Shown here: positions 7,219 to 28,914 of the stretch, piece after piece | Position numbering within the stretch: the first letter of the stretch is position 1 | Layout of the letters: the number at the start of each line of letters is the position of its first letter | Translations under genes and position numbers: made by a program | Notes under the pieces: model-generated | Told to the model about the DNA's origin: nothing | Databases searched by the model: none | The model's input: the letters and a program-made list of their open reading frames with translations, nothing else | NCBI RefSeq assembly: GCF_003385955.1 | Contig: NZ_QRDW01000001.1 | Location: 310,001-374,000, forward strand | Reading direction: 5' to 3' | DNA length: 64,000 bases | Source of the DNA: Aestuariispira insulae | GTDB lineage: Bacteria > Pseudomonadota > Alphaproteobacteria > UBA8366 > Aestuariispiraceae

Positions 7219-8619
7219 TCATGGCGTGACCGGGATCTCACGGCGGATCATTGTCAGGCCATAAGATCTGTATTTTTCAAAGACTTCATCGGTCCCGCCC
7301 GGATTCTCAACCATGGCATAAAACTGGCTGGAGATTTCTTCAGACGGCTGATCGAAAGACAGCGCGGTCACGGTGTAATTGAGATCCCCACTGCGGAACA
7401 ACGGCAGACGGATCGGCAACACGACGGATTCGCCGCTTTCCAACTCGCCGGTGAAAAGCTGCATGGTTTCCTGTTTATCCCGGAAGCGGGAATTACTCAT
7501 CTGAGGGATCACGCTGGACCAGATCTGCCGGGTTGCGCCCGACCGATTGGTCAATTCAAATTCCAGACGGCACAATCGGTCCGGGCGGGTCAAACGCAGG
7601 TTGTTCTCCCCCTGGACCTTAAGGGTTTCCGCCTTAAGGGAAGTGTTGCGAAACCGCATGCCCGCACAGCTTTTACCATCGGCGGGACGTAGGCCACGAA
7701 CGCTGAGCGCCAGCGACACAGCCTGCGGCGACCGCTGCAGCTTTTCACGATATGTTTCCGCAAGCCATGGCCAGGCATGATCATTCAGCGCAGCCTCCAA
7801 GCGCTCAATCTGCCCTTTTTCCGCCATTTCCTGCCATTGCCGCGGCCCTTCATCCCAAAGGCGATAACCAAAGGCAGCCAACGAAAAGATGAGAATCAAT
7901 CCAAGTCCCAGCAAAACCCGGTACCGGGTAATACTGCTCGATGGCGAGGTTGTGTCAGCAGGTGGTTCTGTTGCCTTTTCCTCTTCGGAATGATCCACAG
8001 AACTTGGCATGGGTGATGTCTGCACCTCTTCCCTATCAGGTGCGGCAGTCTTTTCCGGCACGCCCATCTGCAGGGCATCCAGGGCCTCGGACACATTTTC
8101 AATGGCAAACACATCCACATTCGGCGGCAGTTTGCCAATCAACGCCTGATCCAGGTCCGCTTTCGGTAAAAAGATGGTCAAGGGCAGGCCTTCACCGGCC
8201 GTTTCCATCATCAACTGGCCGGTATGATCCAGTTTTTCTACCATATGGCCGACCTTCTCCACCCCAAGGTCGCGCGCATTGACAGCACCGGTAACAAAAA
8301 GAACCCCGTTGGCCGGTTCCCCTCGCTGCGCCAGGCGCCCCTCTGCCGCCAACGCATGGGCCAGATATACCCCCAGCTGCCAGCTTTCGCCATTGGTGAT
8401 GGGATCGGAAACATCCAGCCGGTAAACCCTGTGGCCTGTCATCCGTTCGATCACCCCCGTCGGCTTGCGGACAAAGGCATCATAACCGGGGGTAATCGGC
8501 AGGGACTGGGTGGTACCGTTCAGGCAGACCACCGACGAAATATCAGGATCTTCCTCTACGAGGCTCTGGATTTCGGAGGGGCCGTTTGTTGTCGCAATAT
8601 AGATGCGCAGCTTCATCAC
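7219..8619 (-). CDS. Membrane protein with possible Lon-like N-terminal domain
   Basis: This 466-residue protein has no family I can name with certainty. Residues 1-175 look cytoplasmic, then comes an acidic and Pro/Ser-rich linker (about 190-230), one membrane helix (about 233-255) and a periplasmic beta-rich domain. Within the N-terminal part, NGES at 76-79, FVTGAV near 108-113 and VGHMVEKL at 123-130 line up in order with the Lon peptidase signatures DGPS, TGE and GGxxEKL. Ser79 and Lys129 would then be the Ser-Lys dyad. This is a by-eye match, not a proven homology. It overlaps the upstream gene by four bases (ATGA) and is last of a coupled trio, which suggests it works in the same complex. 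Confidence 0.75.
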   Translation of the reverse strand: MMKLRIYIATTNGPSEIQSLVEEDPDISSVVCLNGTTQSLPITPGYDAFVRKPTGVIERMTGHRVYRLDVSDPITNGESWQLGVYLAHALAAEGRLAQRGEPANGVLFVTGAVNARDLGVEKVGHMVEKLDHTGQLMMETAGEGLPLTIFLPKADLDQALIGKLPPNVDVFAIENVSEALDALQMGVPEKTAAPDREEVQTSPMPSSVDHSEEEKATEPPADTTSPSSSITRYRVLLGLGLILIFSLAAFGYRLWDEGPRQWQEMAEKGQIERLEAALNDHAWPWLAETYREKLQRSPQAVSLALSVRGLRPADGKSCAGMRFRNTSLKAETLKVQGENNLRLTRPDRLCRLEFELTNRSGATRQIWSSVIPQMSNSRFRDKQETMQLFTGELESGESVVLPIRLPLFRSGDLNYTVTALSFDQPSEEISSQFYAMVENPGGTDEVFEKYRSYGLTMIRREIPVTP

Positions 8620-9170
8620 TGGAGATAGAGCTCCGTTTTCACATCCCTGAGCGCACGGACCAGATCCGACCCTTCTTCCTCTATCAACTGAATTCTGCCA
8701 TTCACCGGTGCCGGCAGCGGCTGTTTCAGATAGAGCCCCTCCGCATCCTTCAGCACAAGAGCCCCCGGTTCCTGCTGGGTATAATCCCCCAGCTCAAGAA
8801 TGATATAGAGTTGATTCTGCCCGCTGCGCGATGCTTTGAGGCGCAGGGTAAAGCCTTCGCCCTCACGCTGATCCACCATACCGCTGCTGGCGGCGGCAAC
8901 ACGCGGAAACTGATAAATCGCGGTCCGCGACATCAGGGCATCCAGATCCCGTCGCAAACGCGCGCTTTCTTTCAAGGCCCGGCTGATTTCCGGTGTCATC
9001 AGCGCATGCGGATCATTGGCAAAAGCATAAATCTGGGCAAACCCTATTGCGGGGACTGCATCAGAGCGGTGTATTGCCCGGCTGATCTGGTCCATATTGC
9101 TGAGTGCGTCAAAAAGGCGCTCTGCGGCCTGTTTTTCTTCAACGGTTTTCCCGTTCCAGGATGTCGTCAT
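8616..9170 (-). CDS. Conserved unknown soluble protein
   Basis: The 184-residue product has no signal peptide or membrane helix, so it is likely cytoplasmic. The N-terminal 95 residues are predicted helical (MTTSWNGKTVEEKQAAERL and following) and the C-terminal half is strand-rich with ILELGDYT and PVNGRIQLIEEE. I do not recognise it. Its start overlaps the stop of the 509-codon gene upstream by four bases, and its own stop overlaps the next start by four bases. Such double coupling usually marks subunits made in fixed ratio. Confidence 0.75.
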   Translation of the reverse strand: MTTSWNGKTVEEKQAAERLFDALSNMDQISRAIHRSDAVPAIGFAQIYAFANDPHALMTPEISRALKESARLRRDLDALMSRTAIYQFPRVAAASSGMVDQREGEGFTLRLKASRSGQNQLYIILELGDYTQQEPGALVLKDAEGLYLKQPLPAPVNGRIQLIEEEGSDLVRALRDVKTELYLQ

Positions 9171-10672
9171 GCCGACTCTCCATAAATACGTCTGAACTGG
9201 TTCGCAAATAACGGCCGGTCCATTTCATAGATCTTACCCCAGTCCTCGCTGTCTTGCAGCAATTCCAGGATCGATTGGAACCTGCCATTGACCGGGGCCA
9301 GACAATCCGCAGCCTGTTCAAACGCCTCTGCGGTTTCCGGTTCATCCAGAAGCTCTTCCTGGAATCCCTGTCGGGAAATGCTATGAAAGGCCTTGCGGGC
9401 TTTTCCCATAACGGCAAAATCAATCGTGCTGGTTTCATTGTCCCGTTCCTGGGCGCGCCCGACCACATAAAGCGCCGCCAGCATCAGTTTATCCAGATAC
9501 CCCGCGACCTTTTCCATGGCCGACAGCCGATCCTGATAATTCTCCACCGCCGCGTTTTCCAAAAGCGACATGAACTCATCCGCCAGCATCTTGTTGCGCA
9601 GCGCTTGAGAAATCCGGGCCTGGCCGCGGCCGAACACCTCGGCACGCATATAGGATATCCGCCATCGCCGGACCTCTTCCAGGCGGGGCAATAGGTAGGA
9701 TAATGTTTCCGTTTCCCGCTTGTTCAGGAATTTGATCCGGTCGAGCGGCGGTTCCATCAGGCGTTCCAGGGGATCCATTGCCTCATCGACGACAAAATCG
9801 CTGAGCTGGTGGGCTGAATCCGGATCGATCTCGCCCATTTCCCGATCATTGCCAATCACGCCTGCACGCCCAGCCGCCTGAAGCATCTTGCCATGATCGA
9901 GCGACTGAACGAAACGCACAAATCCATCGAACACAGTAGGAAAGGCCGTGAAATTCCCGCTCTCCTCGCCCGGCAGATGGGAATATTCCCGCCAGAAGGC
10001 TAGCAAACAGGCGTCATCAATTTCAGAACCGTCAAAGGATGGACCGTACTGTTCCTCGAGGAAAGTTACGATCTGTCGGAATTTCTTCTGGTTTTGCACA
10101 GTGGGCAGATGATCTTCCAGGAAACGATAGACCAGGCGCGCCATTTCCTTTGCCCCGTCAGAGACCGCCTTCTGGCTACAATCCGGTGATAGCACAGGCT
10201 GGAAAACCTCGGCGCATTCCACATAGCCCAACGCATTTACCAGAAAATCCATCAAAATGGCCAGAAATGGCATACGGCCAAATTTTATCGAAAAATCTTC
10301 GGCCCCCGGATAGTGCAATGTGATCCCGTCGGTGCGCACGCTGACATATTCCTGCGCCACACGTCCAGACGACGCTTTGGCGCAGATCACATCGCGGAAA
10401 TTGGTGGGCGTCGCCGGAATAACTTCCCAGAACAGAGTCTCAAAAGCCCCTTTTCGGTCCATCAAGGCCGCAGCCCGCACCAGATGCAAAAGTTCCAGCA
10501 TGGGCTTGGCATAGATTCGGCAGGCGATCACGCGCCCCAGTTCCATACATTCTTTTTCCCGGAAACGCGGCCTGCCGTCGAAATCCTGATCCGCGATGGC
10601 ATGAAAAATCTGTTCCAGCACCGGGCTTTTACCCGCCTGGAGCAGAAAAAATTCAGCAGGAGAATCCGACAT
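9167..10672 (-). CDS. Conserved unknown helical protein
   Basis: From the ATG at 10672 this is a 501-residue soluble, mainly helical protein; a GTG eight codons upstream is an alternative. I see no nucleotide-binding loop, signal peptide or membrane segment. Leu- and Glu-rich helices such as LLPRLEEVRRW and DRLSAMEKVAGYLDKLM suggest a scaffold or adaptor. It is the first gene of the translationally coupled trio with the two genes below it, and is 175 bases downstream of the lytic transglycosylase gene, with a hairpin between. Function is unknown; membership in the envelope cluster is inferred from position. Confidence 0.75.
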   Translation of the reverse strand: MSDSPAEFFLLQAGKSPVLEQIFHAIADQDFDGRPRFREKECMELGRVIACRIYAKPMLELLHLVRAAALMDRKGAFETLFWEVIPATPTNFRDVICAKASSGRVAQEYVSVRTDGITLHYPGAEDFSIKFGRMPFLAILMDFLVNALGYVECAEVFQPVLSPDCSQKAVSDGAKEMARLVYRFLEDHLPTVQNQKKFRQIVTFLEEQYGPSFDGSEIDDACLLAFWREYSHLPGEESGNFTAFPTVFDGFVRFVQSLDHGKMLQAAGRAGVIGNDREMGEIDPDSAHQLSDFVVDEAMDPLERLMEPPLDRIKFLNKRETETLSYLLPRLEEVRRWRISYMRAEVFGRGQARISQALRNKMLADEFMSLLENAAVENYQDRLSAMEKVAGYLDKLMLAALYVVGRAQERDNETSTIDFAVMGKARKAFHSISRQGFQEELLDEPETAEAFEQAADCLAPVNGRFQSILELLQDSEDWGKIYEMDRPLFANQFRRIYGESA

Positions 10673-10786
10673 AATCACCCAGGTCCGTCTTGTCACCGAT
10701 AAAACCGGCTAACGCGCTGATCAGCCAACTCTTTAGAACCTGATTATTGCATCAACCAGCCGCGGCGCAAGCCCTGAAAACGCGAA

Positions 10787-10817
10787 TATCCCCGGCCTTG
10801 GGTGAAAGCCGGGGATA
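10787..10817 (-). terminator. GC-rich hairpin below the transglycosylase gene
   Basis: A perfect 10-bp inverted repeat (10787-10796 with 10808-10817, TATCCCCGGC and complement) lies in the gap after the lytic transglycosylase stop on the minus strand. It is followed there by a weak T-rich stretch, TTCGCGTTTTC. It may be an attenuating or weak terminator that divides the row into two transcription levels. Confidence 0.45.
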
Positions 10818-10847
10818 AGGGGAAGGAAGGTTAAATCTGACAGTTGA

Positions 10848-11735
10848 TCACATGAAACGGGCGCTGCCTTTTGCCTTCAAGCGGTTTTCGGAGCGACTAA
10901 GGCTCTGGCGAAAGCGGCTGCGCAACTCCGGTTCCGGATCCTCGCCCATGGCTTCATACCATGCCGGAACAGACGGTTCCTGCATACTTGTCTGCTGGCT
11001 TGTGACCGCTTCGCCGACAAGATCCTTACCTTCCAGGATCCGGTCCGCTTCAGCCAGATAGTCGCGCCAGCCCTTTTCCACACCGTCCTCTTCCAGCAGC
11101 CAATAGGCGTCCGGATCAACCGGGGCATGCGTCAGCTTTTGTTTCTGTTTGGCATAGTCTCGCGAGGCCTCGGTCGCGGCCAACACAACACGAGAGCGGG
11201 TGAAGCGACGCCAATGACGGGTCACATCCGCCACATATTTCCGGGTATAGCCATGGGCGCGGGCACGAGCCCCCTTGCCGCCTTTCAGCGTGCCGCCATT
11301 ATAATGCGACAGGGCCAGGTCCCAGCGGTTGCCATATTGCCGATAGAGTTTTTCAAGAAACGCGATGCCCAGCTGGATATTTAGCCTCGGGTTCCATAAA
11401 CGCTTTGGTGCGACACCAAATTCCCCCCGCGCCGTTGCAGGCATAATCTGCATCACACCTCTCGCTCCGGCGTGGCTTTCCACATGGGCCTGAAAATCGG
11501 ATTCAACCTTGGCTACCGCCAGGGCCAGCGCCGGCGGAACCACTCCGTTTTTCCTGGCTTCTTCAACCACCATCCGCTGGATGGTCTCACGGCTGTACCC
11601 CTGATCCTGGCGGGTGGCAAAGCTGCTGCCCGATGTCGCCACAAGAATGCCAAGCGTGGTGGCAAAGACCGTGAAGGATACGAATATTGCAAACAGGAAT
11701 CGCGATAAGAAAAGCTCAGTCATGCGTTTTGTCAT
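10848..11735 (-). CDS. Membrane-anchored lytic transglycosylase (SLT domain)
   Basis: This 295-residue protein has one N-terminal membrane helix (about residues 10-32, SRFLFAIFVSFTVFATTLG) and a family 1 lytic transglycosylase domain. The catalytic Glu is in AVAKVESDFQ, followed by GARGVMQIMPATA, NIQLGIAFLEKLY and LSHYNGG. The domain would face the periplasm and cut peptidoglycan. About 110 C-terminal residues after the SLT domain are charged and unassigned. The start at 11735, two bases past the previous stop and preceded by AGGAAA, is better than the upstream one at 11765. Its place beside a TolR-like gene suggests it opens the wall for a trans-envelope assembly. Confidence 0.9.
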   Translation of the reverse strand: MTKRMTELFLSRFLFAIFVSFTVFATTLGILVATSGSSFATRQDQGYSRETIQRMVVEEARKNGVVPPALALAVAKVESDFQAHVESHAGARGVMQIMPATARGEFGVAPKRLWNPRLNIQLGIAFLEKLYRQYGNRWDLALSHYNGGTLKGGKGARARAHGYTRKYVADVTRHWRRFTRSRVVLAATEASRDYAKQKQKLTHAPVDPDAYWLLEEDGVEKGWRDYLAEADRILEGKDLVGEAVTSQQTSMQEPSVPAWYEAMGEDPEPELRSRFRQSLSRSENRLKAKGSARFM

Positions 11736-11737
11736 GG

Positions 11738-12175
11738 TCATTTCCTTCCAAGGGCTTCCATCCACCGGGCATCCAGGGTGGAAACAATCAAATTGTCGCG
11801 GTTGAACCGAGACCGGATTTCCAGCGCCTCCACCATGGGCAGACTGGGCGGCATGGCCAGAATCACCCGGCCATCCGGCGGCAGGTCCATTGGATCCAGA
11901 TCCTTAAGATCCGCATCGAAGAAACTGCCTTCGTGATAGATAACGATGATGTCTTCCGCGGCAGGTTCGGCCTTGCCGCTATTTTCCGATGCGTCGGGTT
12001 TGGCGGGGGCCAATTCCACAGACATGACAGCCTGCGCCGCAGCTTTTTCCTGACCGCTGCCAGCGCCCATGGAAACCATGGTCAGCACCATGATGGAGAA
12101 AAACCCCATGGCCAGGGCTAATGCGATCTCTGTCATGGCACTGTCGGCCGAATAGCTGTGATGTCCGTGATCCAT
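11738..12175 (-). CDS. Small single-pass ExbD/TolR/MotB-like membrane protein
   Basis: The product is 145 residues from the ATG at 12175, or 153 from 12199. A short His-rich cytoplasmic N-terminus leads to a single helix containing MTEIALALAMGFFSIMVLTM, with the bulk of the protein outside. That topology and a carboxylate (Glu16) at the start of the helix resemble ExbD, TolR and MotB, where an Asp there carries protons. The C-terminal domain ends in a strand-helix pattern (GRVILAMPPSLPMVEALEI) similar in size to the ExbD/TolR periplasmic domain. A matching TolQ/ExbB-like partner lies at 23385-23906. Family assignment is by eye and remains an inference. Confidence 0.7.
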   Translation of the reverse strand: MDHGHHSYSADSAMTEIALALAMGFFSIMVLTMVSMGAGSGQEKAAAQAVMSVELAPAKPDASENSGKAEPAAEDIIVIYHEGSFFDADLKDLDPMDLPPDGRVILAMPPSLPMVEALEIRSRFNRDNLIVSTLDARWMEALGRK

Positions 12176-12509
12176 TCTCTTCACCGCTTGACTTGTCATT
12201 AAAACGGCAGGCTTGTCCGCCGGTGAAAAACGCTATGGAAGGGGGAAGCGACTTTTCCCGGGCCCAATCCCAAGAGAATCTGAAAAACCTTTGGACCGAT
12301 AGGGGGATATGATCCCTGCTGCACATATGATATCATTGAATTTATTCGGGAAATATACTTCTATTGGCCATCAGGTTTTCTTTGAAAAAAGATCGAACCA
12401 ATCGCGGTTTTGAACCGGCATTTGCAAAAAACCGCCAGGGCCTTTCATTACGGTGACCAGCATAGACAGCGCCGGTGACAACCGCGCAAACAAAATGGAG
12501 AACCAGGTT
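12176..12509. other. Divergent intergenic region
   Basis: This 334-base region separates the minus-strand TolR-like gene from the plus-strand exported protein and must hold promoters for both. The middle part (about 12300-12370) is AT-rich. A 10-bp palindrome, ATGATATCAT, lies at 12327-12336 and could bind a regulator. I could not assign a -35/-10 pair with confidence. Confidence 0.5.
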
Positions 12510-13514
12510 ATGATGGTATTCGGGAAAAAACTAAGGCATGGCCTTGCAGCGATTGCGGCGCTGGGCCTGGCTGGAACCGTAATGACCGGCATGGCACATA
12601 CGGCCGCCGCTCAATCACACAGCACGCGTTTGCCGGTGCTCGTGATGGGGGAGGATTCGGACCCGTCTTCCGTGAAACGATCCAGCGATATCTTCAAGCG
12701 CGTTCTTGCCGGTTTGAAAGGCAGCATGCAGCGCTATGGTTTCCGTATGGTCGATGAAGAATTCATGGCCGTGGATCTTGGCTGGAAAAGCACCGACCGT
12801 CGGCCAAAAACCGAACTGATCGAAGCGGCAAAACTTGCCAACAATGCCGCCCAAGGCAATCTGCGCAGCCGGGTGATGGTTTTGTTCCGCATTCATGCGA
12901 CGTCCAAAAACCTCAGCTTTTCCAACAAAGTGACCACCCGCATCGATGGCGAGATCTATGATATCGCCAGCAACAGCTTCATCGACAGTTTTGAATTGGC
13001 CCCGGCGGCCTATGCCGCCCCTGCGGACTGCAATTCGATCTGTATTAACGAGGTTGTCGGTGGCAAAGCCCGAGAGATCGCCCAAAACCTGGGGGATATC
13101 CTGGCAAAGAAACTGGAATATGTTGCCTATGACCAGCCGGAAGGCATGGCCAATGCCGGTTCCGCCGGAACCGCCCAGGCCGAGAGCCAGATGCTGGTGC
13201 CTTACACGGTGACATTGAATTATTTCGACACACGCGAAGCACTCTCAATCATCGGGGTGATGGCTGATGAATTCCCGGGCTATTCCTCCCATGACCTATT
13301 GGAAAAGGGCGCAGTGACCCGCAAATATGAATATGTCACCAATGCCAAGGTGAGCAAACTGGAAGAATGGTTGAATATCCTGATGATCGATATGGGCTAT
13401 GATGTGGACAAACAGATCAACATTGATGTCCAGGCCGGCCGGATCATCATCGACAAGATCGTACCGACCCCGGACCGACCCCGGTCGGATGACGAAACCT
13501 CCCGGTTTAACTGA
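12510..13514 (+). CDS. Exported two-domain protein, paralogue of the lipoprotein at 20304
   Basis: Started at the ATG at 12510 (GGAG nine bases upstream), the 334-residue protein has a typical signal peptide ending near HTAAAQS. The mature N-terminal domain starts LPVLVMGEDSDP and has the alternating strand-helix pattern of CsgG/LpoB/TolB-N domains. It includes a conserved Cys pair in APADCNSIC. The C-terminal domain contains EFPGY, and ends in strands. All these landmarks recur in the same order in the product at 20304-21290, so the two are paralogues; this one is soluble and the other is a lipoprotein. It is monocistronic, with its own terminator. Function is unknown. Confidence 0.85.
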   Translation: MMVFGKKLRHGLAAIAALGLAGTVMTGMAHTAAAQSHSTRLPVLVMGEDSDPSSVKRSSDIFKRVLAGLKGSMQRYGFRMVDEEFMAVDLGWKSTDRRPKTELIEAAKLANNAAQGNLRSRVMVLFRIHATSKNLSFSNKVTTRIDGEIYDIASNSFIDSFELAPAAYAAPADCNSICINEVVGGKAREIAQNLGDILAKKLEYVAYDQPEGMANAGSAGTAQAESQMLVPYTVTLNYFDTREALSIIGVMADEFPGYSSHDLLEKGAVTRKYEYVTNAKVSKLEEWLNILMIDMGYDVDKQINIDVQAGRIIIDKIVPTPDRPRSDDETSRFN

Positions 13515-13605: not shown

Positions 13606-15018
13606 CTATGTGCCGCTGATCCTTGCCAGCGCACGGCGTCGGAAAAGATCCGCTTCATCCGGGCCGACTAATATCTCTTTCAAATGGGCAGCCATGATCA
13701 CATAGGATTTGGCTCGTTTCCGGTATTCCGGCGGCACATTGGCCATTTGATCCAGCAGGGTCTCCCCATAGGTGTCCAATTCCTTGTTCAGGTTGCTGAC
13801 CACTGCGCGGGCCGCACTGCTGACACCAATCCGCTCACCAATACGGACCGTTTCCCGCACTGCCTTGGCCCTTTCTTCCGCCTTACGATATTCAGCCGGA
13901 TCGATATCAGACCTGAGATCCGCCACTCCGGTGGTGGTGCGGCCAATCTTTTTCCGCCGCATTTTCAGCGACCCCAACACCTGTTCCTTGGCCGATTGCA
14001 AAACAACTTTGTCGATGGTGCCGCTGATCCGCTTGCGTGTTTCCAGCAACCGCTGGCCCCACTCCCCTTCGCGTTTGATATTCAAATTATCAGTCACCGC
14101 CTTGAAGGAGCCAACATATTCCTGGGCCAGCTTCATCACTTCCTGCGCGCCGCCCGGCCGCCCGGCCACGGCTTCGATCGTGTCGGCGAAGGCTTCCACA
14201 TTCTGCAACACAACATCGCCAACAAGGGAGAGGTCCGTCATGCTGGCCAGGGTGTCATCGCCTTTGGGGCTAAGCGAACGCACCACCTTCAGGATATCCG
14301 CATCCCGCAGGAGACGCCGCATGATTCCGATTACCAGCCAGGATTCATTCCCCGGCTTGGAACCCGCAATCTTATGATAGGCCTCCTTAATCTCACCCAC
14401 ATGATTGCTGTCCAGCTTCATGATCGGTTTCATTGGCAGCCGCAGTTTCAACCGTTCAATTTCGGCCCCGATCCGTAGGAAAGGCAGCATTTCCCGCAGA
14501 TCATCCAAACGGTTCACGCCACCGATGTCTGCCGCCAGTTTCTTGCCGCTCTCGGCATCTGCATAGGCCTGTTCGACCGGTGCCTCAATCACCTCAACAG
14601 CGGTTTCCCAAATTGCAACCTGGGCTTCCCAAATCGCTTCCTTATCCCCACGCTCAGCTACCTTGTCATAGATCGCACAGACCCGGGACATATCCGCGCC
14701 ACCGGCACGCAACAGCCATTCCCAGACCGGCTGCAATGAAGCCCTGGCAATCAAGGCCTTTTCCTTGACCCGGGGATCCATCGGGGTCAGCAGATCCTCA
14801 AACGGGTTACAGAAAATCCGTTGTGGCGTATTGCGCCTTGGCGGTTTGACGAATTGTAATGAAGGTCGCAGCAAGGACATGATCAAATCATGGGGTATGC
14901 CGGTATCGCCGGCCTGCCTTGCTTTATCCAGCAAGGTCACCAGTTCTGAGACCCGGTGGGACGGCATCCGGGAAAAAAGTGCCTGAAGCGCTTCTTTTTT
15001 TTCAGCTTTCAGCAACAA
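13606..15018 (-). CDS. Conserved unknown helical protein
   Basis: This 470-residue, mostly helical protein has no signal peptide or clear membrane segment and is not recognised. Charged helices such as KEQVLGSLKMRRKKIGR and EERAKAVRETVRIGERIG dominate the C-terminal half. It starts with TTG at 15018, preceded by GGTGAGGA, and lies three bases downstream of the stop of the next gene upstream, so the two are translationally linked. It is convergent with the exported protein gene. Its nearness to the two envelope loci makes it a candidate cytoplasmic component of the same system, but nothing in its sequence proves that. Confidence 0.72.
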   Translation of the reverse strand: MLLKAEKKEALQALFSRMPSHRVSELVTLLDKARQAGDTGIPHDLIMSLLRPSLQFVKPPRRNTPQRIFCNPFEDLLTPMDPRVKEKALIARASLQPVWEWLLRAGGADMSRVCAIYDKVAERGDKEAIWEAQVAIWETAVEVIEAPVEQAYADAESGKKLAADIGGVNRLDDLREMLPFLRIGAEIERLKLRLPMKPIMKLDSNHVGEIKEAYHKIAGSKPGNESWLVIGIMRRLLRDADILKVVRSLSPKGDDTLASMTDLSLVGDVVLQNVEAFADTIEAVAGRPGGAQEVMKLAQEYVGSFKAVTDNLNIKREGEWGQRLLETRKRISGTIDKVVLQSAKEQVLGSLKMRRKKIGRTTTGVADLRSDIDPAEYRKAEERAKAVRETVRIGERIGVSSAARAVVSNLNKELDTYGETLLDQMANVPPEYRKRAKSYVIMAAHLKEILVGPDEADLFRRRALARISGT

Positions 15019-15021
15019 TCC

Positions 15022-16131: not shown

Positions 16132-16338
16132 AATTTTGCCTGCCCTGCACAAAAAGCCGGCAAACCGACCTTACCACAACACTCATTTTCATTCCCTGTT
16201 TCCCGGCTTTTTACCGGAATTTATTCTTATTCCCATCTCTTCAAAAAAATAAGCATTCCTGACAAGCGGGCAAGATAATTCGGCCGCTAACACAGTTCTC
16301 CAATCCACCTCCCTCCTGTAGCGCTTTACTCAAAATTA

Positions 16339-17193: not shown

Positions 17194-17270
17194 AAATGAT
17201 GGGACTGGACTCTCAGTAAAACCTGCCTACATTTAGAATGATCATTCCAAACATGACAGGGTGGGGCAAT

Positions 17271-19349: not shown

Positions 19350-19356
19350 ACCGTCC

Positions 19357-21437: not shown

Positions 21438-22031
21438 ATGACCAAGCAATTCAACAGCCCTGTAAAAGCCACCGGCCTGGCGCGCCTTGGTCGCGCGGCC
21501 ATTCTGGGCACCGCCCTCGCCTCTCTTGCCGCCTGTAACGGCATGTATGGTGCTAAACAACCCACCGGCGAAGGGATCGGTTATCATGATGCCCGTTATC
21601 AGGAAATCGCCGCAATGCGCGAATATCGCGCCTGCCGTGACGAGGCCCTGGAATTGGACGCCCAGGCACGCCAGACCAAGTCGGCCGCAAAATATATCGC
21701 CAGCGCCAAGCTGATCGACGGCTGTGAGGCCAACCTTGGCCCGGAAGCGCGCGGCGTTGCCGTTGTAGAGCGGATGCGGGCCTACGGCCTGAGCATTCAG
21801 AATTATCTGAAAGGCGGCGAGATCGCGAACGCCCAGAATAATTTCGAGCGTTTCCAGCAGGAATTTGCCGGCAAGGACCTCTATTACGCCGACGGTAGCT
21901 CTTTCACAGAAACCATGAGTGCGTTGCTCTCGCGTGAGGAAACCACCTCTTACGGCCAGTTCTCCCTGCTGAATGTGAATAGTGATCTGAAGGCCGAAAT
22001 GCGCCGTGTCAATTATTGGCAACAGAATTGA
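21438..22031 (+). CDS. Small helical lipoprotein
   Basis: The 197-residue protein has a lipoprotein signal with the lipobox SLAAC near residue 33. The mature part is helical, with a segment resembling repeated-helix DUF4398-type periplasmic proteins: AAKYIASAKLIDGCEANL and GEIANAQNNFERFQQEF. AAGGA precedes the ATG. It is the first gene of the long row 21438-28914, in which gaps are short or absent. I infer a structural or assembly role at the outer membrane. Confidence 0.83.
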   Translation: MTKQFNSPVKATGLARLGRAAILGTALASLAACNGMYGAKQPTGEGIGYHDARYQEIAAMREYRACRDEALELDAQARQTKSAAKYIASAKLIDGCEANLGPEARGVAVVERMRAYGLSIQNYLKGGEIANAQNNFERFQQEFAGKDLYYADGSSFTETMSALLSREETTSYGQFSLLNVNSDLKAEMRRVNYWQQN

Positions 22032-22057
22032 TCAGGCCCAAAACGGAGGATTGAACC

Positions 22058-22954
22058 ATGAACAGTTCCCATAAAAAACACTTCCGTCAGGCCGTTTTAT
22101 GCGGCGCGGCTTTGGCCATCTTCATCGGTTTTGGCTCTCCCGCCATTACTTTTGCCGATGTGCCGAACTGGTCGCCGAAGGCCAGTGAACGCCTGGTGAA
22201 ACTGCCCGGCAATTACTTGAAAAAGGCGATCGACCGAGATTTTGCCGGGTCTGAGCTTGCGGGTGCCATCAACGATATCGGCAGCCAGGTCAACCTGAAG
22301 AAACAAAGCATCAAGGACCTGGAGGAAGCCGCCGAGATGGCAGATGGTGACGTCCGGATCGAGCTTCGCCACCAGCATCTAGCCGAAAAGCAGGAGTTCA
22401 TCAAACTGATGGGCGAGCGCCAGGATTTGCAGCGCAAGCAAGTACAGACCCGGATCACCCTTTATAAACGTCTGTTGAATAAACTGCAGCGCGAAAACCG
22501 GGGCACGGACCCGGAAACGCAACAACTGGTTCAACAGCAGGAAGAAGCCCGCCAGCGGTTTGAAACGGTTGCCGATCAGCTGGATCTGGAACTCTTCGGC
22601 GAGCCCGGTGTCAAACAGAGCAAATATTCCGTGGAATATGCCAAGAACTATGCCGCCATCCAGCAGTTGAGCGCCGCAATCAACAGCCACCCAATGAACC
22701 AGCAGCCGGAAATGAACGGCGAGCCGATCAGCAAGCAGGATTACCTGCGCCAGTTGATCCAGACCGCAGAATCCGAAAAAGCCCTGCTGGATCAACAGGA
22801 CAGCATTCTTGGCTACATGGCCAAACTGGTGGCGCTGGATGCGCTGGCCCTGGCAGAAGACGTCCAGGACGAACAGTTGGGCTTCGACCCGGATGATGAA
22901 GAACAGGAAGATCCGCTGGCAGTTGCCAACAATGTCGATCTTTTCCTGAACTGA
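22058..22954 (+). CDS. Exported coiled-coil protein
   Basis: This 298-residue protein starts with a signal peptide (AVLCGAALAIFIGFG, cleavage near TFA). The mature chain is Gln- and Glu-rich with long helices: ELRHQHLAEKQEFIKLMGE and KLQRENRGTDPETQQLVQQ indicate a periplasmic coiled coil of about 150 residues. The C-terminus is very acidic (DPDDEEQED). GGAGG precedes the ATG. No family is recognised. A rod of this kind could span or brace the periplasm, in keeping with the neighbouring TolA-like and OmpA-like genes. Confidence 0.82.
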   Translation: MNSSHKKHFRQAVLCGAALAIFIGFGSPAITFADVPNWSPKASERLVKLPGNYLKKAIDRDFAGSELAGAINDIGSQVNLKKQSIKDLEEAAEMADGDVRIELRHQHLAEKQEFIKLMGERQDLQRKQVQTRITLYKRLLNKLQRENRGTDPETQQLVQQQEEARQRFETVADQLDLELFGEPGVKQSKYSVEYAKNYAAIQQLSAAINSHPMNQQPEMNGEPISKQDYLRQLIQTAESEKALLDQQDSILGYMAKLVALDALALAEDVQDEQLGFDPDDEEQEDPLAVANNVDLFLN

Positions 22955-22995
22955 CCCTGATGAAGCCCTTGAATAGACTTAAGGAGACTTGAACC

Positions 22996-23385
22996 ATGAA
23001 TATCTTACTCAAAAGCACCATTTTGTCCGTGGCCCTGGCCGCAGCCGGCATTACCACCGCTCAGGCGGGCACGCTTGAAAACCTGGAACGGGAGCGTGCG
23101 GAGACCATTCAGGTGATCCTGGATCCCAGCATCAGCGCGGAAGAGCGCCAGCAACGTTTGAACCAGTCCCGCCACCGACTGGTGGATATGGAGCGTATGG
23201 TCCTGCGCGATAAGGATCTAAAAGGCAAAAACACGCCCGTTGTGCGGGTTGCCTTCCGCAATTACGACCTGACCTTCCTGGCCCATGCCGCAACCGAAAA
23301 GCAGGTCACCATGACCGAACAATGGCTGGAACAGGTGGGGGTCACCACCAATACCCTGATGAATGCGCGTGTGGGGCGGAAATAA
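22996..23385 (+). CDS. Small exported helical protein
   Basis: The 129-residue product has a clear signal peptide (ILSVALAAAGITTAQA) and a short helical mature domain rich in Arg and Glu (ENLERERAETIQV, SAEERQQRLNQSRHRLVDME). GGAG precedes the ATG. Its stop overlaps the start of the channel-like gene (TAATG), so the two are translationally coupled. It is probably a periplasmic accessory subunit of the predicted channel. No family is recognised. Confidence 0.83.
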   Translation: MNILLKSTILSVALAAAGITTAQAGTLENLERERAETIQVILDPSISAEERQQRLNQSRHRLVDMERMVLRDKDLKGKNTPVVRVAFRNYDLTFLAHAATEKQVTMTEQWLEQVGVTTNTLMNARVGRK

Positions 23386-23906
23386 TGAAACAGCTTGCTC
23401 CAACCCTTGGGAACGCCTCCCGGACGCTGAGTTATCTGTTGGGTGGGGTGGTTGTGACCCTGGCGATTGCCGCCATGACCACCTCGCTCAGCATCCAGGA
23501 CATTGCCCAATGGATGGGGCAGGTCCTGGGACCGACCTTCGTCACCCTGCTCACGATCATGGTTGCCGGCACCTTGTTTTGTTGGGTGAATATCCTGCGC
23601 CGCACCGGTGAGACCGCCGTCTGGCTGGAAGCGGGCATGCATGCCGCCAATGGCATTACCACGCTGGCACTGACATTCACCCTTCTTGGGATCAGCTTAG
23701 GCATCGGCACTCTGGCAGACCAGACCCTGACACCGGAAACCGTTCAAGAGGTAATCCGGGGGCTGACCGCGCAATTTTCACTGGCCTTTCTGACAACCGT
23801 GATCGGCCTGCCACTGGCCGCTCTGCTGCGTGCACTGATCCTGGTTACCTATACCAATATCCGGGCGAAACAGGCCCGCATGCCCCTGCTGACAGGAGGA
23901 CAATGA
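23385..23906 (+). CDS. TolQ/ExbB/MotA-like proton channel protein
   Basis: The 173-residue inner-membrane protein has about four hydrophobic helices (residues near 16-36, 50-70, 90-110 and 130-155). The third and fourth carry the family pattern: TFTLLGISLGIGTL resembles the LLGLLGTVIGM helix, and FLTTVIGLPLAALL resembles the TTxxGLxxAxP helix of MotA, TolQ and ExbB, including the Thr that lines the ion path. It lacks the large cytoplasmic part of MotA and is short even for ExbB. Its start overlaps the previous stop and it ends one base before the next ATG. The likely partner is the TolR-like protein at 11738-12175 or the single-pass protein just downstream. Confidence 0.82.
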   Translation: MKQLAPTLGNASRTLSYLLGGVVVTLAIAAMTTSLSIQDIAQWMGQVLGPTFVTLLTIMVAGTLFCWVNILRRTGETAVWLEAGMHAANGITTLALTFTLLGISLGIGTLADQTLTPETVQEVIRGLTAQFSLAFLTTVIGLPLAALLRALILVTYTNIRAKQARMPLLTGGQ

Positions 23907-23907
23907 G

Positions 23908-24558
23908 ATGAAATACATTATCTTCAATATCGTGGTCGCCGGCGCCCTGGTTTATCTGGTGGCGGGAGATGATCTGCAACTGCCGACCAGCCCGACCGAA
24001 GCGATTGAAAACACGGAAGTTCGGCTGGATGAAACGATCAATAAAATCCGACCAGAAGTAGAGAAGACCGCCTCTAAGGTCGCGGAAGAGGTCGCCGAAA
24101 AGGTGGCCGCCCGGGTGGCCGATGAAATTGCCGCGCGCCTTGAGCAGGAGCGGGTGTCCTCCCTGCAAATCGCAGCCCGAAGCACTGCACCGATCGCACC
24201 CGGGCCGGACCATGTCCCGGCGCAGGCCGACCCGGTCACCGCGGCCATGCTGGACCCGGAAGATACGCTGTATCAGGATCCCGCCATCGGCCTGCCGGAG
24301 GAGACCGCCATCGCCGAAACCCTGCCGCCGATCGAAGAGGTTCAGATTGCCCCTGTCACCACCTATAAACCGATCGATGGCCTGGAGGAAGCAGTCGGTC
24401 AATCCCGCGAAATGGCCGGAGACTTCAGCCCGCCAACGCCGGACAGCATCCAGATCGCGGAAGGCGAGCAGATGATGGCACCGCGCGATCGCCAGCGGGA
24501 GCTGGATGCGCTCGCCCAGAATATGGAAATGATGTTTTTGAACCGGGCCGGCCAATAA
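23908..24558 (+). CDS. Single-pass membrane protein with coiled coil
   Basis: The 216-residue protein has one N-terminal helix (IIFNIVVAGALVYLVAG), then a helical stretch of repeated EV/EKV units (KVAEEVAEKVAARVADEIAA), then a Pro- and acidic-rich unstructured region. The topology is N-in with the body in the periplasm. AGGAGGA precedes the ATG, one base after the previous stop, so it is coupled to the channel-like gene. It could act as the TolR-like or rod partner of that channel. No known family is recognised. Confidence 0.8.
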   Translation: MKYIIFNIVVAGALVYLVAGDDLQLPTSPTEAIENTEVRLDETINKIRPEVEKTASKVAEEVAEKVAARVADEIAARLEQERVSSLQIAARSTAPIAPGPDHVPAQADPVTAAMLDPEDTLYQDPAIGLPEETAIAETLPPIEEVQIAPVTTYKPIDGLEEAVGQSREMAGDFSPPTPDSIQIAEGEQMMAPRDRQRELDALAQNMEMMFLNRAGQ

Positions 24559-24600
24559 GCCCCATGTGATTCGAAAACGCTGTTGAGGAGAGACAGGATC

Positions 24601-25896
24601 ATGAAACGGACCGGAAATTTTGCATCCATTGCCTTGATGCTGGCCGTTGCCCTGTCTCTCGCCTGGCTTAAATGGCCGCAGGATCGGGCCGAACAACGGG
24701 AAGAGACGGTTCAGAAGAAACAGAGCCCGGCTCAAATGTCTGAGACTGAAATCCGGAAAGAACTGGAACGAGCCCTGCAGGAACAGGCGCAGATGAACAC
24801 GGTCACCCTGCCCGCACCGCCGCCGGCACCAGCGATGGAAACGAACGCCGCAGTTGTGCCGGATACCGCTGCTAAAACCCCAAAGCCGGCGGAGAAACCG
24901 CTCAAAACCAGGTCCGTCTTGAAACCGGAAGCGCAAAAGCCGACCCCGGTCAGGGCGGTGCAGCCCCTGAAACAGGCTGCCCCGCAAGATCCGCCGACCA
25001 CAAAGAAGAGAAAGACGATTGAGCCGATCAAGCCCCGGAAACGGACTAAGATTGTAGAGGTTACCCGGACACCGATCCAAACATTTGCCCCCACCAGGCC
25101 TGAAACAATGAGACCGGTCATTGAGCCAATAAAACCCATCAAGGCCGAGTTGCCCCAGGATAATCAGGAACAGCCGGATCCCCAAGACCGCCCGGAAAAA
25201 ACACATGAGAACTATCCGACAAATGACAATGCCGACCTGGTTGCAGATGCGCGCGGGCAAGCGCTCTCCGCGGCAAAAGAACTCCCCGCCGCCAAGGCCG
25301 AACTGGATGACTGGCGTAAACAGGCGGATCAGGTACTCCATGTCTCTGCCAGCCAGTCAAAATCGGAGGTACAGGCCGGGCGCAGCCTCTTGCGTTTGCT
25401 GGAACATGGCTCCGGCCCGGCCATCGAGATCGCCTGGCCGTCGAGCAACCGGGAGCGTATGGCCCTATTCGACAGTTTCAACGCTTGTTTCGGCATGGTG
25501 ACCGCCGTCATGGACCGCTCCGGCATGCTCTATCGGGAAGGCGGCCGCTCCGGTAAACCCTGGCAGGTTAGCATGGATGCCTATAGCGGATTCGTCCGCC
25601 AGCCATCCGGCGCCGTCATCCAGGCGGAAGAGAAAAAGGCCGCCCTGATTCGCCGCCAGCACCGCCTCGCCGGGCCATCCACCATGGTCCGGGTTTTCCC
25701 CCGGTCTGTCGATGCAGTCATATTGGGCGGCTTGAGCCGACTGATAGGGCATCGCTACAAGCAAGCCCGCGTCATTCATGCGCGCTATCAAAAATCCGGC
25801 CGCGGGCTGGAGATCCGTTCTATCATGGTAGATGGCACCCCTGTTTCCGGAACAATTTCCGTGGAAGCCTATCGTCATTGCGGAGGGCTAACATGA
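24601..25896 (+). CDS. TolA/TonB-like periplasm-spanning protein
   Basis: This 431-residue protein has the layout of TolA or TonB: one N-terminal membrane helix (about residues 8-24), a Pro/Lys/Glu-rich extended region from about 65 to 210 (PAPPPAPAMETN, KPTPVRAVQPLK), and a folded C-terminal domain of about 200 residues. The C-terminal domain has no TonB or TolA signature I can see and may be a new type. GAGGAGAGACAGG precedes the start at 24601. The stop overlaps the next gene's start. Rods of this kind carry energy from an inner-membrane proton channel to outer-membrane partners. Confidence 0.8.
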   Translation: MKRTGNFASIALMLAVALSLAWLKWPQDRAEQREETVQKKQSPAQMSETEIRKELERALQEQAQMNTVTLPAPPPAPAMETNAAVVPDTAAKTPKPAEKPLKTRSVLKPEAQKPTPVRAVQPLKQAAPQDPPTTKKRKTIEPIKPRKRTKIVEVTRTPIQTFAPTRPETMRPVIEPIKPIKAELPQDNQEQPDPQDRPEKTHENYPTNDNADLVADARGQALSAAKELPAAKAELDDWRKQADQVLHVSASQSKSEVQAGRSLLRLLEHGSGPAIEIAWPSSNRERMALFDSFNACFGMVTAVMDRSGMLYREGGRSGKPWQVSMDAYSGFVRQPSGAVIQAEEKKAALIRRQHRLAGPSTMVRVFPRSVDAVILGGLSRLIGHRYKQARVIHARYQKSGRGLEIRSIMVDGTPVSGTISVEAYRHCGGLT

Positions 25897-26627
25897 AGAT
25901 ATCCTTCAAACCCAAGAGCCCCCTGATCCTGGCCACAGCCGGGTTAGGCCTAAGCCTGTTGTCGGCTTGCGTCACCACCGAGCATGTACCCTATGGAGCA
26001 CGGGATGAAAAACCGCTCACTCTGGGCCGCACGGTCGAATATGAGATCAACGACCGGTTCTACCAGGATGCACCGGAATGCGTGACCATTCTGCCGGTGG
26101 ATACAGGCGGAGACGCGCAGACGACGATCCACCTAGCAGTTGAAGATGCAGTTTCGCGCTATATGCGTATGAAGATGACCCGGGTGATCGATCGCACGGA
26201 CCGTCGCCTGCTGGAACGCCGACTGGCGGTCGATCTGTCTCACTCATCCGACCGCTCAGCCTACGCCCGGACCAGCCGTTGTCGCCATTTTGTCCGCATC
26301 CGCCCCTGGGGCGGCGGCAATCAATATCTGGTCTTCTGGTCACGGGAGAGCATCGGCGCGGAGGTTTCCATTGTGCGCGCCGATGACAACACCCCGCTCT
26401 GGAAAGCACGCCATGTGGCGTCACGATCCGATGGTGGGCTTCCGCTCAACCCGTTTTCCGCTGTTTTCAGCGCCTATGAGGCAAATGCCCTGTCCAGTGA
26501 TTCTGAAATACCGCTTTCGTTGGCCGATGATGTGGCCCGCAATATCGTGGCGACTATTCCCACCATGCGGCGCAGCACCATCACCCAATACAGCTACACC
26601 CCCACAAAGCCCTTTGGTACGAATTGA
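25893..26627 (+). CDS. Lipoprotein with LpoB/CsgG-like fold
   Basis: The 244-residue product starts at the ATG at 25893, overlapping the previous stop (ATGA). It has a lipoprotein signal with lipobox LLSAC near residue 26. The mature domain has an ECVTILPVDTGGD strand followed by helices and RTDRRLLERRLAV, the pattern of stress-type or LpoB/CsgG-like outer-membrane lipoproteins where a strand and a helix precede a ViDR/VeR motif. The basis is pattern, not a database match. It probably sits in the outer membrane facing the periplasm. Confidence 0.8.
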   Translation: MKISFKPKSPLILATAGLGLSLLSACVTTEHVPYGARDEKPLTLGRTVEYEINDRFYQDAPECVTILPVDTGGDAQTTIHLAVEDAVSRYMRMKMTRVIDRTDRRLLERRLAVDLSHSSDRSAYARTSRCRHFVRIRPWGGGNQYLVFWSRESIGAEVSIVRADDNTPLWKARHVASRSDGGLPLNPFSAVFSAYEANALSSDSEIPLSLADDVARNIVATIPTMRRSTITQYSYTPTKPFGTN

Positions 26628-26669
26628 CCGACAATCAGCAAAAATTTAAACTGTACAAATATTTAGAGG

Positions 26670-27224
26670 ATGACGCTGATGACCGAGCACAAATGTAAAA
26701 CTCTCCGGAAATGTCTGCATTTCATTGTCTCAGCGGGAATTGTCCTCACAGCCATTGCCGCCCATGCCCAACAGGATAACAACATCATCGACAGCCGCGA
26801 TCTGATTGGCCAGTTGACGCCTGTCACCGGCGAGGTCGCCATTGTCAATCTTTCCATCCCCTTCAAAATCGGCTCTGCCGACCTGACCGCCCAAGCTCGG
26901 GATCAATTGAACCAATTGGGTCAGGCTTTGCAGTCGGAAGCTCTCAGCTTGATGGATGTCGGCCTGTTCGGCCATACCGATGCCTCCGGATCGGCGGGTT
27001 ACAATCTGACCCTTTCGGATAAAAGGGCTCAGATGGTGCGCGACTATCTGATCGAACACTTTAAGATTGATCCGGAAAAATTAACGGCACGGGGATATGG
27101 CGAGGAACGCCTGTTGCACCCAGAAGCGCCACTGGCGGCGGAAAATCGCCGTGTAGAAGTGGTGACCACCCGACCGATCACCGGCACCCCACCGCCGGAA
27201 GGCGACACACAGGCCATCAACTGA
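26670..27224 (+). CDS. OmpA/Pal-type peptidoglycan-binding protein
   Basis: The protein is 184 residues with a signal peptide ending near AIAAHA and an OmpA C-terminal domain. The peptidoglycan-contact residues are present in FGHTDASGSAGYNLTLSDKR (Asp) and ENRRVEV (Arg). It has no lipobox, so unlike Pal it is probably soluble or held by partners. The ATG at 26670 has GAGGA just upstream; 26679 is an alternative. In the row it follows a lipoprotein and precedes the DUF4384 protein, the place of Pal in a Tol-like set. Confidence 0.92.
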   Translation: MTLMTEHKCKTLRKCLHFIVSAGIVLTAIAAHAQQDNNIIDSRDLIGQLTPVTGEVAIVNLSIPFKIGSADLTAQARDQLNQLGQALQSEALSLMDVGLFGHTDASGSAGYNLTLSDKRAQMVRDYLIEHFKIDPEKLTARGYGEERLLHPEAPLAAENRRVEVVTTRPITGTPPPEGDTQAIN

Positions 27225-27258
27225 CCGCCGACCCCGGGACAGGATATTGTATAGGATT

Positions 27259-28914
27259 ATGATCGCTTTCACGCCTTTTGCCAGAAAACTTCTTACCGCC
27301 CTGGTGCTGCCGCTTATTCTGCTCAGCTTCAAGGGGGCTGCCATGGCTGCGGATGCGGACCGCACCCTTCGCAAGCTGGCCATCGAGATCATTTACGACG
27401 TGCCTCGGGGCAAGAAGCTTGCGATCCGGCCGTTCTTCGACCAGGAAACTGATCTGCCGCGTGATATCGCCGACAGCCTCTACGATTCGCTCTTCACCGC
27501 CTTTTTCCGGGTGAGCGCCGGGGACCATGTCTTCGTCGAGCGCCAGAACCTGATCAAAATCATGCGGTCCCGTGAAGAGTTTTATGCCGAAGATCTGGAG
27601 CAATTGCTGCGGTCAGCAAAGGCAGATGTGGAAATCATCTGTACCCCGACCCCCCATGTTGACGGCGTGCTGCTTGCCTGCAATGCCAGCGACCTGCTGC
27701 ATGCCACCACTCTGGGCCGGGCACAGGCGGTGATTCCGCTTGATGCCAAGAAAAGCGGCGCACAACCTTATGAGCTTGCGCTGTCAGACATTGCCTTCCA
27801 GGTCGCGCCTAAGCTGGGGGATCTGAAGGCCATAGACCGGATCGCCATCCGGGACCAGAATAAGGGCAGCCAGACCGACCTTGGCGCTTGGCTTGGAAAA
27901 CAGCTAGCAACACAGGTGGAAAGCCGGGTTTCCCAGAAACAGCGGCAGGATCAGGAACAGTATGAACGCCAGCGGGAGTTGGATGAAACCGCACAGGAAA
28001 CCATGCAACCCACCGGCCATTATTCCCTGACCGGCACGCTCTATCGGTTGGACGAAACAACCCTGCAATTGCTGGTCAGTTTCGATCATCGCGGCCAGAC
28101 CGCAGCCAAAGGCAGTGCCAAACTGACCTTGGCATCGCTCCCCGAGTCCCATCAGGAATCCCAGAATATCAGGGAGCGCGTCTTCAGTGCGGTTGGAGAG
28201 GCCATAGTATCCGCAAAACTGGACCAGGATGCCGCGCGCCGCGCCGCGCAGAACCTGGCCCGCGCGCGCGTGGTTGCCCAGGCGCTAGGCATTCCGGGGC
28301 CCGCAGTCAAGGAGATTGTCAGCGAGGCCGATGCCGCCCATGCCCTGACCAAGACCCTGAGCGCCGGTATCCCGATCGAGGAACGCTTCATCGACATCAA
28401 TCCCACCGGACCCGGTGAGCGGATCGCGGTTGAAATCCGCGCCAGGGTCCTCCCCGTTGGAACCGTTCTGGTGCCGGACGTGAAAGCCCGGCTCAGCAAA
28501 GGAACCTATCGTGCGATGGAGCCGATCTATCTGGATGTTTCCAGCACAGCCACCGCCTTTATCGGTGTCTATTCCTGGGGGGCCGATAATCGTGTCGTGC
28601 GAATATTCCCGAACCCGCGCCGCCCGTCCCTGGCGGTTGAGCCAGACAGCCCACTTTTGTTGCCGGGTGAAAAGGATGGCCGTTTCATGTCCATGCCGCT
28701 GCCGGGCTATGACAATCCCGAGGATCACGAGGCCCTGATCGTAATTGCCAGCAACAAACCCACCGATTTTAAAAGCCTGGCCCCGGAAGTCGGACAAACC
28801 CTCTCGGAAACGATGAAACGATCAACCGACGGCAGCCAGTTTTTCAATGCCTTGAGCAAGCTGGATGTCAGCCGGATCTCTATTCATATTCTCCCCTATC
28901 AGGTTCGGCGCTGA
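27259..28914 (+). CDS. Exported CsgG/FlgO-like protein with C-terminal DUF4384
   Basis: The 551-residue protein has a signal peptide ending near KGAAMA. The N-terminal domain (about 25-150) has KKLAIRPFFDQETDLP, a helix, and VFVERQNLIKIM, the layout of CsgG/FlgO domains that have a VvER strand. A middle region is charged (QDQEQYERQRELDE). The C-terminal domain carries the DUF4384 pattern YRAMEPIYLDVSSTATAFIGV then VRIFPNP. DUF4384 proteins are often linked to envelope or serine-protease loci. It closes the row; the biotin operon with its own promoter follows. A TTG at 27247 is an alternative start. Confidence 0.85.
   Translation: MIAFTPFARKLLTALVLPLILLSFKGAAMAADADRTLRKLAIEIIYDVPRGKKLAIRPFFDQETDLPRDIADSLYDSLFTAFFRVSAGDHVFVERQNLIKIMRSREEFYAEDLEQLLRSAKADVEIICTPTPHVDGVLLACNASDLLHATTLGRAQAVIPLDAKKSGAQPYELALSDIAFQVAPKLGDLKAIDRIAIRDQNKGSQTDLGAWLGKQLATQVESRVSQKQRQDQEQYERQRELDETAQETMQPTGHYSLTGTLYRLDETTLQLLVSFDHRGQTAAKGSAKLTLASLPESHQESQNIRERVFSAVGEAIVSAKLDQDAARRAAQNLARARVVAQALGIPGPAVKEIVSEADAAHALTKTLSAGIPIEERFIDINPTGPGERIAVEIRARVLPVGTVLVPDVKARLSKGTYRAMEPIYLDVSSTATAFIGVYSWGADNRVVRIFPNPRRPSLAVEPDSPLLLPGEKDGRFMSMPLPGYDNPEDHEALIVIASNKPTDFKSLAPEVGQTLSETMKRSTDGSQFFNALSKLDVSRISIHILPYQVRR

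Follow-up and report, generated by a model that had tools for sequence, protein, structure and literature searches.

Do two neighbouring gene runs in a 64,000-nucleotide stretch of an Aestuariispira insulae contig (the window) encode one machine, and if so, of what kind? One run lies on the minus strand (7219-12199) and the other on the plus strand (21438-28914). An original prediction, made from this DNA, had proposed that they encode a single Tol-Pal-like trans-envelope machine. We found that the two loci form one system, a conclusion supported by gene order and co-occurrence in relatives, and that it is not a Tol-Pal system. We consider it probable that the genes encode an ion-driven trans-envelope machine, with a motor of the 5:2 type, a rod, outer-membrane lipoproteins and a cytosolic module containing a Lon-type domain. 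No description of this gene set was found in the literature searched; preprints and most subscription papers lay outside that search. The genes are as follows, the first five being the minus-strand run.

7219-8616, minus strand: m466, with a Lon-type (S16) domain in residues 1-185 (taken as cytosolic), one transmembrane (TM) helix, and a presumed periplasmic beta domain containing two conserved Cys
8616-9170, minus strand: m184, small member of the m509-m184-m466 module; no TM helix found, no known family
9167-10696, minus strand: m509, module protein taken as cytosolic; no known family
10848-11741, minus strand: SLT, lytic transglycosylase, exported or membrane-anchored, with a likely ATG start that overlaps the TolR-like stop codon
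11738-12199, minus strand: TolR-like candidate motor B subunit, with one N-terminal TM helix, an invariant Glu and a small C-terminal domain; the start may be internal
12453-13514, plus strand: p353, exported, accessory; start possibly at 12510
20304-21290, plus strand: p328, lipoprotein (LGAC lipobox by pattern), paralogue of p353, accessory
21438-22031, plus strand: LP197, core lipoprotein (LAAC lipobox by pattern)
22058-22954, plus strand: p298, exported, core; helix-rich judging by its sequence
22996-23385, plus strand: p129, small exported protein, core
23385-23906, plus strand: MotA-like A subunit, with four TM helices, a short TM2-TM3 loop and a predicted fold of the ZorA/TolQ/ExbB/MotA type
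23908-24558, plus strand: p216, with an N-terminal TM helix, a linker and a conserved C-terminal motif
24583-25896, plus strand: rod, TolA-like by topology, with a TM helix, a Pro-rich linker and a conserved C-terminal domain of unknown fold
25878-26627, plus strand: LP249, lipoprotein (LSAC lipobox by pattern)
26670-27224, plus strand: OmpA-domain protein without lipobox, accessory
27247-28914, plus strand: exported protein with DUF4384 at its C-terminus, accessory

The genes named in the original prediction were all found as open reading frames at about the positions given there. The minus-strand genes at 7219-10696, which fell within its span and went unnamed, also belong to the system; the m509-m184-m466 module and the Lon-type domain of m466 had been missed.

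In many relatives the genes of the two window loci make up a single operon, with the order TolR-SLT-m509-m184-m466-LP197-p298-p129-MotA-p216-rod-LP249. All fourteen genes stand in a single run of about 12 kb in two genomes (G024, G033), and three more (G027, G034, G037) keep the same core order as far as their contigs or the matches reach. In the window and G001 the first half has the opposite orientation. G009 and G011 retain both halves, separated by about 294 and 316 kb. This shared gene order recurs in dozens of loci and is therefore not due to chance. Median gaps between measured neighbouring profile matches ran from -12 to 78 bases, but 209 bases for m466-LP197. Removal of identical sequences left 63 of 80 genome-collection loci, 35 of them with at least 9 kb upstream; the TolR-like gene was found in 28 of these 35, in 25 on the same strand.

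The two candidate motor genes also track each other. Among 59 genomes (the window's own and its relatives) the MotA-like gene was present in 15 and the TolR-like gene in 14, all within those 15; the sole MotA-like carrier without a TolR-like gene (G031) is an assembly of 530 contigs, and one MotA-like match (G022) was weak (5.9e-4). We then used 385 evenly drawn alphaproteobacterial genomes: 20 had the MotA-like gene, 19 the TolR-like gene and 17 both, i.e. 17 of the 22 carriers of either (Fisher test 1.1e-24, uncorrected for phylogeny). The genomes with the MotA-like gene alone (G237, G346, G390) or the TolR-like gene alone (G165, G228) are all assemblies of 230-440 contigs. m509 occurred in 18 of the 385 genomes, 13 of which also carry the MotA-like gene. 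With the operon found in many relatives and both genes together in most carriers of either, the single-system claim of the original prediction stands.

Profiles of the single genes were matched to 101 loci, which are not independent, as some contigs were fetched twice and many end early. Matches were found in 101 loci for the MotA-like gene, 97 each for p298 and p129, 91 for LP197, 67 for SLT, 64 for the TolR-like gene, 60 for m466, 59 for m184 and 57 each for LP249 and m509, with 28 for the accessory p353. A conserved cargo gene beside the core was also sought; no candidate occurred in more than 13 loci.

A side observation concerns the genome with the weak MotA-like match: at its locus L051 (G022:C11) the operon occurs in a second, highly diverged copy, and another contig of this genome has a typical TolR-SLT-m509-m184-m466 half.

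What do the proteins look like? The start of the MotA-like gene was moved to 23385, an ATG overlapping the stop codon of p129; residues from 23388 onward went into the structure model and searches. The PADLOC ZorA model matched 11 of 13 MotA-like members at E values up to 0.1 (best 4.5e-5), which are not 11 independent tests because the members are relatives. When the MotA-like profile was run against the EH_Signature (Zorya-type) stretches of six genomes, the two best matches were proteins of 791 amino acids (0.027) and 696 amino acids (0.089), which we took for ZorA, judging by length and place. The AlphaFold model (predicted local distance difference test score, pLDDT, 92.8; predicted template modelling score, pTM, 0.83) showed four long helices, the second and third TM segments being joined by a very short loop, and the first 33 Foldseek rows were all TolQ, ZorA, ExbB, MotA or Pom chains. 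Realigned structures gave Z 10.8 for TolQ and Z 9.8 for ZorA (root-mean-square deviation, rmsd, 2.4 over 122 residues), values to be read with the aligner's warning that Z below about 13 can reflect an arrangement common in helical bundles. TM3 contains an invariant Thr (97 of 97) and TM4 a nearly invariant Thr/Ser pair; the protein ends about 20 residues past TM4, without the long cytoplasmic tail of ZorA. The ZorA profile matches and the consistent fold ranking make membership of the TolQ/ZorA fold family likely, though not certain, and on this modelled fold the MotA-like protein is likely to belong with ZorA and with TolQ, ExbB and MotA, the last three as the original prediction had it for its channel-like protein. 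Both conditions set beforehand as refuting the single-machine idea, loci that do not co-occur and a channel-like protein better explained by an unrelated family, thus turned out in its favour. The MotA-like profile found no motor protein among PDB sequences.

For the TolR-like protein one TM helix was predicted, and every one of the 66 non-gap rows has a Glu in it. In TolR and ExbD the counterpart is an essential Asp (PMC12905483). TolR-like profiles gave nothing usable against PDB sequences, and no motor protein. An ordinary ExbB/ExbD-family pair is encoded elsewhere in the genome (on C5), separate from the system. The earlier ExbD/TolR-like label thus keeps its single TM helix and invariant Glu and is weakened by the silence of the ExbD model.

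The rod has the layout of TolA and TonB: a TM helix, a Pro-rich linker and a conserved C-terminal domain. In TolA and TonB the TM helix carries an SHLS motif (Ser-3X-His), as described in part of PMC12905483. The rod of L149 has an SxxxH just beyond the end of its helix. We found no Pfam match for the C-terminal domain and none by sequence in the PDB; the rod profile gave weak linker matches there, TonB included at E 7.5. The likeness to TolA is one of topology.

The Pfam scan covered 29 window proteins (5361-33142) and named three among the system proteins of both runs above cut-off. One is the SLT domain (PF01464, E 1.9e-22), which confirmed the lytic transglycosylase beside the TolR-like gene. 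Another is OmpA (PF00691, 3.2e-18) in the 26670-27224 protein; here the predicted OmpA part was right and the Pal part failed, as no lipobox pattern occurs in the first 60 residues and the Pal model scored 47.9 bits, below its cut-off of 125. The third is DUF4384 (29.4 bits against a cut-off of 27) in the 27247-28914 protein, whose N-terminal part we take to be CsgG-like. No TolB-like Pfam match was found among the 29 proteins. The lipoproteins anticipated in the plus-strand locus were present (LAAC in LP197, LSAC in LP249, with LGAC also in 20304-21290), and the exported pair said to link the loci (p353 and p328) was paralogous at 39% identity. LP249 and p353 profiles gave nothing usable against PDB sequences.

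The m466 profile matched 26 PDB sequences, all of the Lon family (E 0.0028 to 1.1), and hhalign against Lon of relatives gave 9.2e-8, with 11 controls at 0.11 or worse. In the AlphaFold model (pLDDT 86.3, pTM 0.52), residues 1-185 aligned with Lon (best Z 15.2), RadA (14.9), ComM (13.4) and BrxL (12.9), and also with VP4 chains. The first 49 of 50 rows of the VIA structural list were Lon-type folds; the plain Foldseek list (50 rows) held no Lon and read as beta-sandwich proteins, presumably matching the C-terminal domain. In a global alignment Ser78 and Lys128 of m466 fell opposite the nucleophilic Ser and the Lys of Lon. Each is conserved in 47 of 48 rows, the remaining row being a gap, and in a second alignment in 43 of 44, again with one gap each. 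Pfam found no AAA+ ATPase domain as in LonA in any of nine m466 members, the window protein included. Beyond the Lon-type domain follow a TM helix and a beta domain, whose two Cys are kept in 39 and 38 of 44 rows. Judged by alignment and model, m466 carries an S16 fold with a Ser-Lys dyad, shows no ATPase domain and may act as a peptidase. The S16 fold can also serve as a scaffold, as in RadA and ComM. Against PDB sequences the m509 profile found no motor protein, and that of m184 gave nothing usable. An origin of m509 from EH_Signature/ZorC was considered and found unsupported: Pfam gave no EH_Signature match in nine members, and the profile showed no link to EH_Signature loci.

The module also occurs apart from the motor genes. 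In three genomes m509-m184 stands without them, at L275 9724-14346, L276 8568-10651 and L277 8549-12619; m466 is also present in L275 and L277, and in L277 SLT and p353 precede the module.

How might such a machine work? We infer that a MotA-like pentamer and a TolR-like dimer, both oligomeric states being probable, would form a 5:2-type inner-membrane motor, with the invariant Glu of the TolR-like helix as the ion-binding acid; the ion may be the proton, in keeping with the proton-motive drive assumed in the original prediction. Motor motion would be relayed by the single-TM, Pro-rich rod, perhaps also by p216, and the dedicated lytic transglycosylase would open the wall for the rod to pass. 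The motion would reach LP197, LP249 and the exported p298 and p129, which may act on components of the outer membrane or wall; that this work is envelope remodelling or surface assembly is our guess. On the cytosolic side, m509-m184-m466 would join the motor in most carriers. With its Lon-type Ser-Lys domain on the cytosolic side and its beta domain in the periplasm, a predicted sidedness, m466 likely couples the motor to the cytosol, and could do so by scaffolding assembly or by acting as a regulatory peptidase. By analogy, the machine probably works like the Tol, Ton and Zorya motors. A bolder version, in which a minimal ion-driven motor reads or moves parts of the outer membrane and m466 is a membrane-anchored Lon-type peptidase turning the mechanical state of the surface into proteolytic signalling inside the cell, in an envelope machine of its own class, we put forward tentatively and regard as doubtful.

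Besides the aligner's warning, a number of results weigh against this machine. Neither Pfam nor NCBIfam called MotA/ExbB, ExbD or TonB in any window protein. PF01618 (MotA_ExbB) did not match the window protein or 13 members, which matched no relevant Pfam model, and PF02472 (ExbD) found nothing in the window. Because these databases are silent, what supports the MotA-, TolR- and TonB-type labels is the ZorA profiles, the predicted fold, the topology and individual conserved residues. The best Foldseek E value for the MotA-like model was only 0.093, and CorA also reached Z 9.8. Comparison by hhalign was weak both for the MotA-like protein with ExbB (0.041, best control 0.11) and for the TolR-like protein with ExbD (0.031, best control 0.048), too weak for the claim. 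Of 34 rod proteins that have both a clear TM helix and the C-domain motif, none shows SxxxH inside the helix. The motif searched for in the C-terminal domain was missing from 59 of 111 rod rows. The matches for the rod (89 of the 101 loci) and p216 (84) are soft counts because these profiles pick up linker-like stretches, or stretches in other frames, as well. OmpA and CsgG/DUF4384 profiles matched few of the 101 loci (11 and 32). The TolR-like gene was missing from 7 of the 35 loci with upstream room. Finally, m509 was present with no MotA-like or TolR-like match in G148, G198 and G224, so the module is not strictly tied to the motor, and it was absent beside the motor in some loci, e.g. G043 (same contig as L150) and L135.

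These last cases could mean that there are two separate systems, an envelope motor (LP197 to rod) and a cytosolic m509-m184-m466, which are neighbours only sometimes. Three genomes with the module and no motor, and one (G043) with the reverse, fit such a split, but m509 shares its locus with the MotA-like gene in 57 of the 101 loci, most m509 carriers among the 385 genomes (13 of 18) have that gene, and the TolR-like gene itself tracks the motor; we think a split improbable. Another reading is a Zorya-like sensing machine, in which the motor and wall parts would sense envelope stress or phage entry, and m509-m184-m466, with its Lon-type domain as a peptidase, would be the effector or switch. 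The sole motor-family profile matches are indeed to ZorA, ZorA chains rank near the top in fold comparisons with the MotA-like model, and regulated enzymes lie near some loci (a Ser/Thr kinase, an FHA protein, a caspase with SH3, a trypsin, and in G321 an OmpA-subtilase fusion). Yet m509 has no link to EH_Signature/ZorC, the long ZorA tail is missing, no match was found on plasmids, phages or viral contigs, the FabG/FabD and BioB neighbours are common to the window and G001, and each cluster of accessory enzymes occurs in four to eight loci, all of which makes a sensor of this kind unlikely.

A secretion or surface-assembly machine, in which a surface polymer or lipoprotein is exported or put in place through a CsgG-like outer-membrane channel with energy from the motor, would explain the dedicated lytic transglycosylase and the two core lipoproteins. 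It would suit the 32 of 101 loci with CsgG/DUF4384 profile matches, as well as the CsgG Pfam match in another neighbour. The other 69 loci, many of them short, have no such profile match, however, and no cargo gene common to most loci was found beside the core. We judge this, too, to be unlikely, and favour the ion-driven machine with rod and Lon-domain module set out above.

The system occurs in Alpha- and Gammaproteobacteria and is common to many marine bacteria. A phylum-wide draw gave matches in 7 of 398 genomes, the window's own included; the other six are of the same phylum and are not listed as the same class. In a named collection relatives are encoded at 147 loci; carriers among the best 80, which were retained, were Rhodospirillales, Terasakiella, Curvivirga, Magnetovibrio, Sneathiella and SAR116, the gammaproteobacterial Colwellia, Glaciecola and Paraglaciecola, and one metagenome-assembled genome (MAG) labelled Deltaproteobacteria. 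In a four-protein tree (73 of 81 loci) nine gammaproteobacterial loci formed one clade (support 1.0) and the window grouped with Curvivirga. A tblastn search of plasmids and phages gave no match, nor did a viral-contig scan, so that nothing here points to a phage, plasmid or viral origin. Some MAG labels sit oddly with the tree. L181, labelled Gammaproteobacteria, groups with SAR116 and has the divergent gene order of SAR116, because of which its label may be wrong; L128 and L130, labelled Methylocystaceae, group with Terasakiella and may be mislabelled too.

Ser/Thr kinase, FHA, caspase-SH3, trypsin-like and DUF1194 proteins are encoded near some loci (one member scanned per accessory cluster). 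The kinase is fused to an FGE-sulfatase in the copy scanned (L189). These accessory enzymes are sporadic, yet they point to regulation. Kinase cluster members occur in L157, L182, L109 and L189, which are gammaproteobacterial loci (L109 from a genome outside the class), and FHA cluster members also in L182, L109 and L189. A further DUF1194 protein follows the motor-free module in L275. At L281 1129-3363 (G321) an OmpA domain is fused to a subtilase, near a separate m466-m184-m509, in a neighbourhood that also encodes p353 paralogues, an SH3-FGE protein and a CsgG-like protein.

Between the two window loci (13606-20205) lie m470, m376, a solute-binding protein, two GSTs, a cold-shock protein and a methyltransferase, with no result supporting their membership in the system. 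m470 and m376 (13606-16152, minus strand) gave no convincing Pfam or NCBIfam family and no phmmer match in 19 relative stretches; we rejected them as parts of the system, and they are perhaps a separate orphan pair.

How does this set compare with known systems? Only a few kinds of ion-driven 5:2 motor have been recognised. Those named in PMC12204202 are the flagellar, gliding, Tol, Ton, Zorya and type I secretion motors, and section 8 of this 2025 survey holds that trans-envelope systems of the 5:2-motor type remain to be discovered. The present set spans two classes, adds a Lon-type domain and brings about ten subunits without a Pfam family name; its carriers include named cultured organisms (Terasakiella, Curvivirga, Colwellia, Glaciecola) amenable to deletion work.

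Tol-Pal is resembled in the A-subunit fold near TolQ, in a single-TM TolR-like protein with an acidic residue, in a rod with a TM helix and long linker, and in the OmpA-domain protein and lipoproteins nearby. The detailed likeness drawn in the original prediction breaks down: Glu replaces Asp, the rod helix lacks an SHLS-type motif, the OmpA protein has no Pal lipobox, no TolB-like Pfam match was found, the genome's ordinary ExbB/ExbD pair is separate on C5, and a lytic transglycosylase and the Lon-type module are added. Zorya ZorAB (ZorA, type II) shares the A subunit, to which the ZorA model and aligned chains point; the ZorA cytoplasmic tail is described in a portion of PMC11890865. Unlike Zorya, our system has no such long tail, no OmpA match in its B subunit and no EH_Signature protein, and no plasmid or phage copies were found. 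The Agl-Glt and GldLM motors, which have many envelope subunits, are alike in being ion-driven, a likeness by description. GldLM is named in PMC12905483, and Agl proteins in PMC12505986 and PMC12204202. With Lon, RadA, ComM and BrxL, m466 shares the S16 fold of its residues 1-185, its Ser and Lys aligning with those of Lon; unlike these Lon-type proteins, and with no ATPase domain found, it joins its S16 domain to a TM helix followed by another domain.

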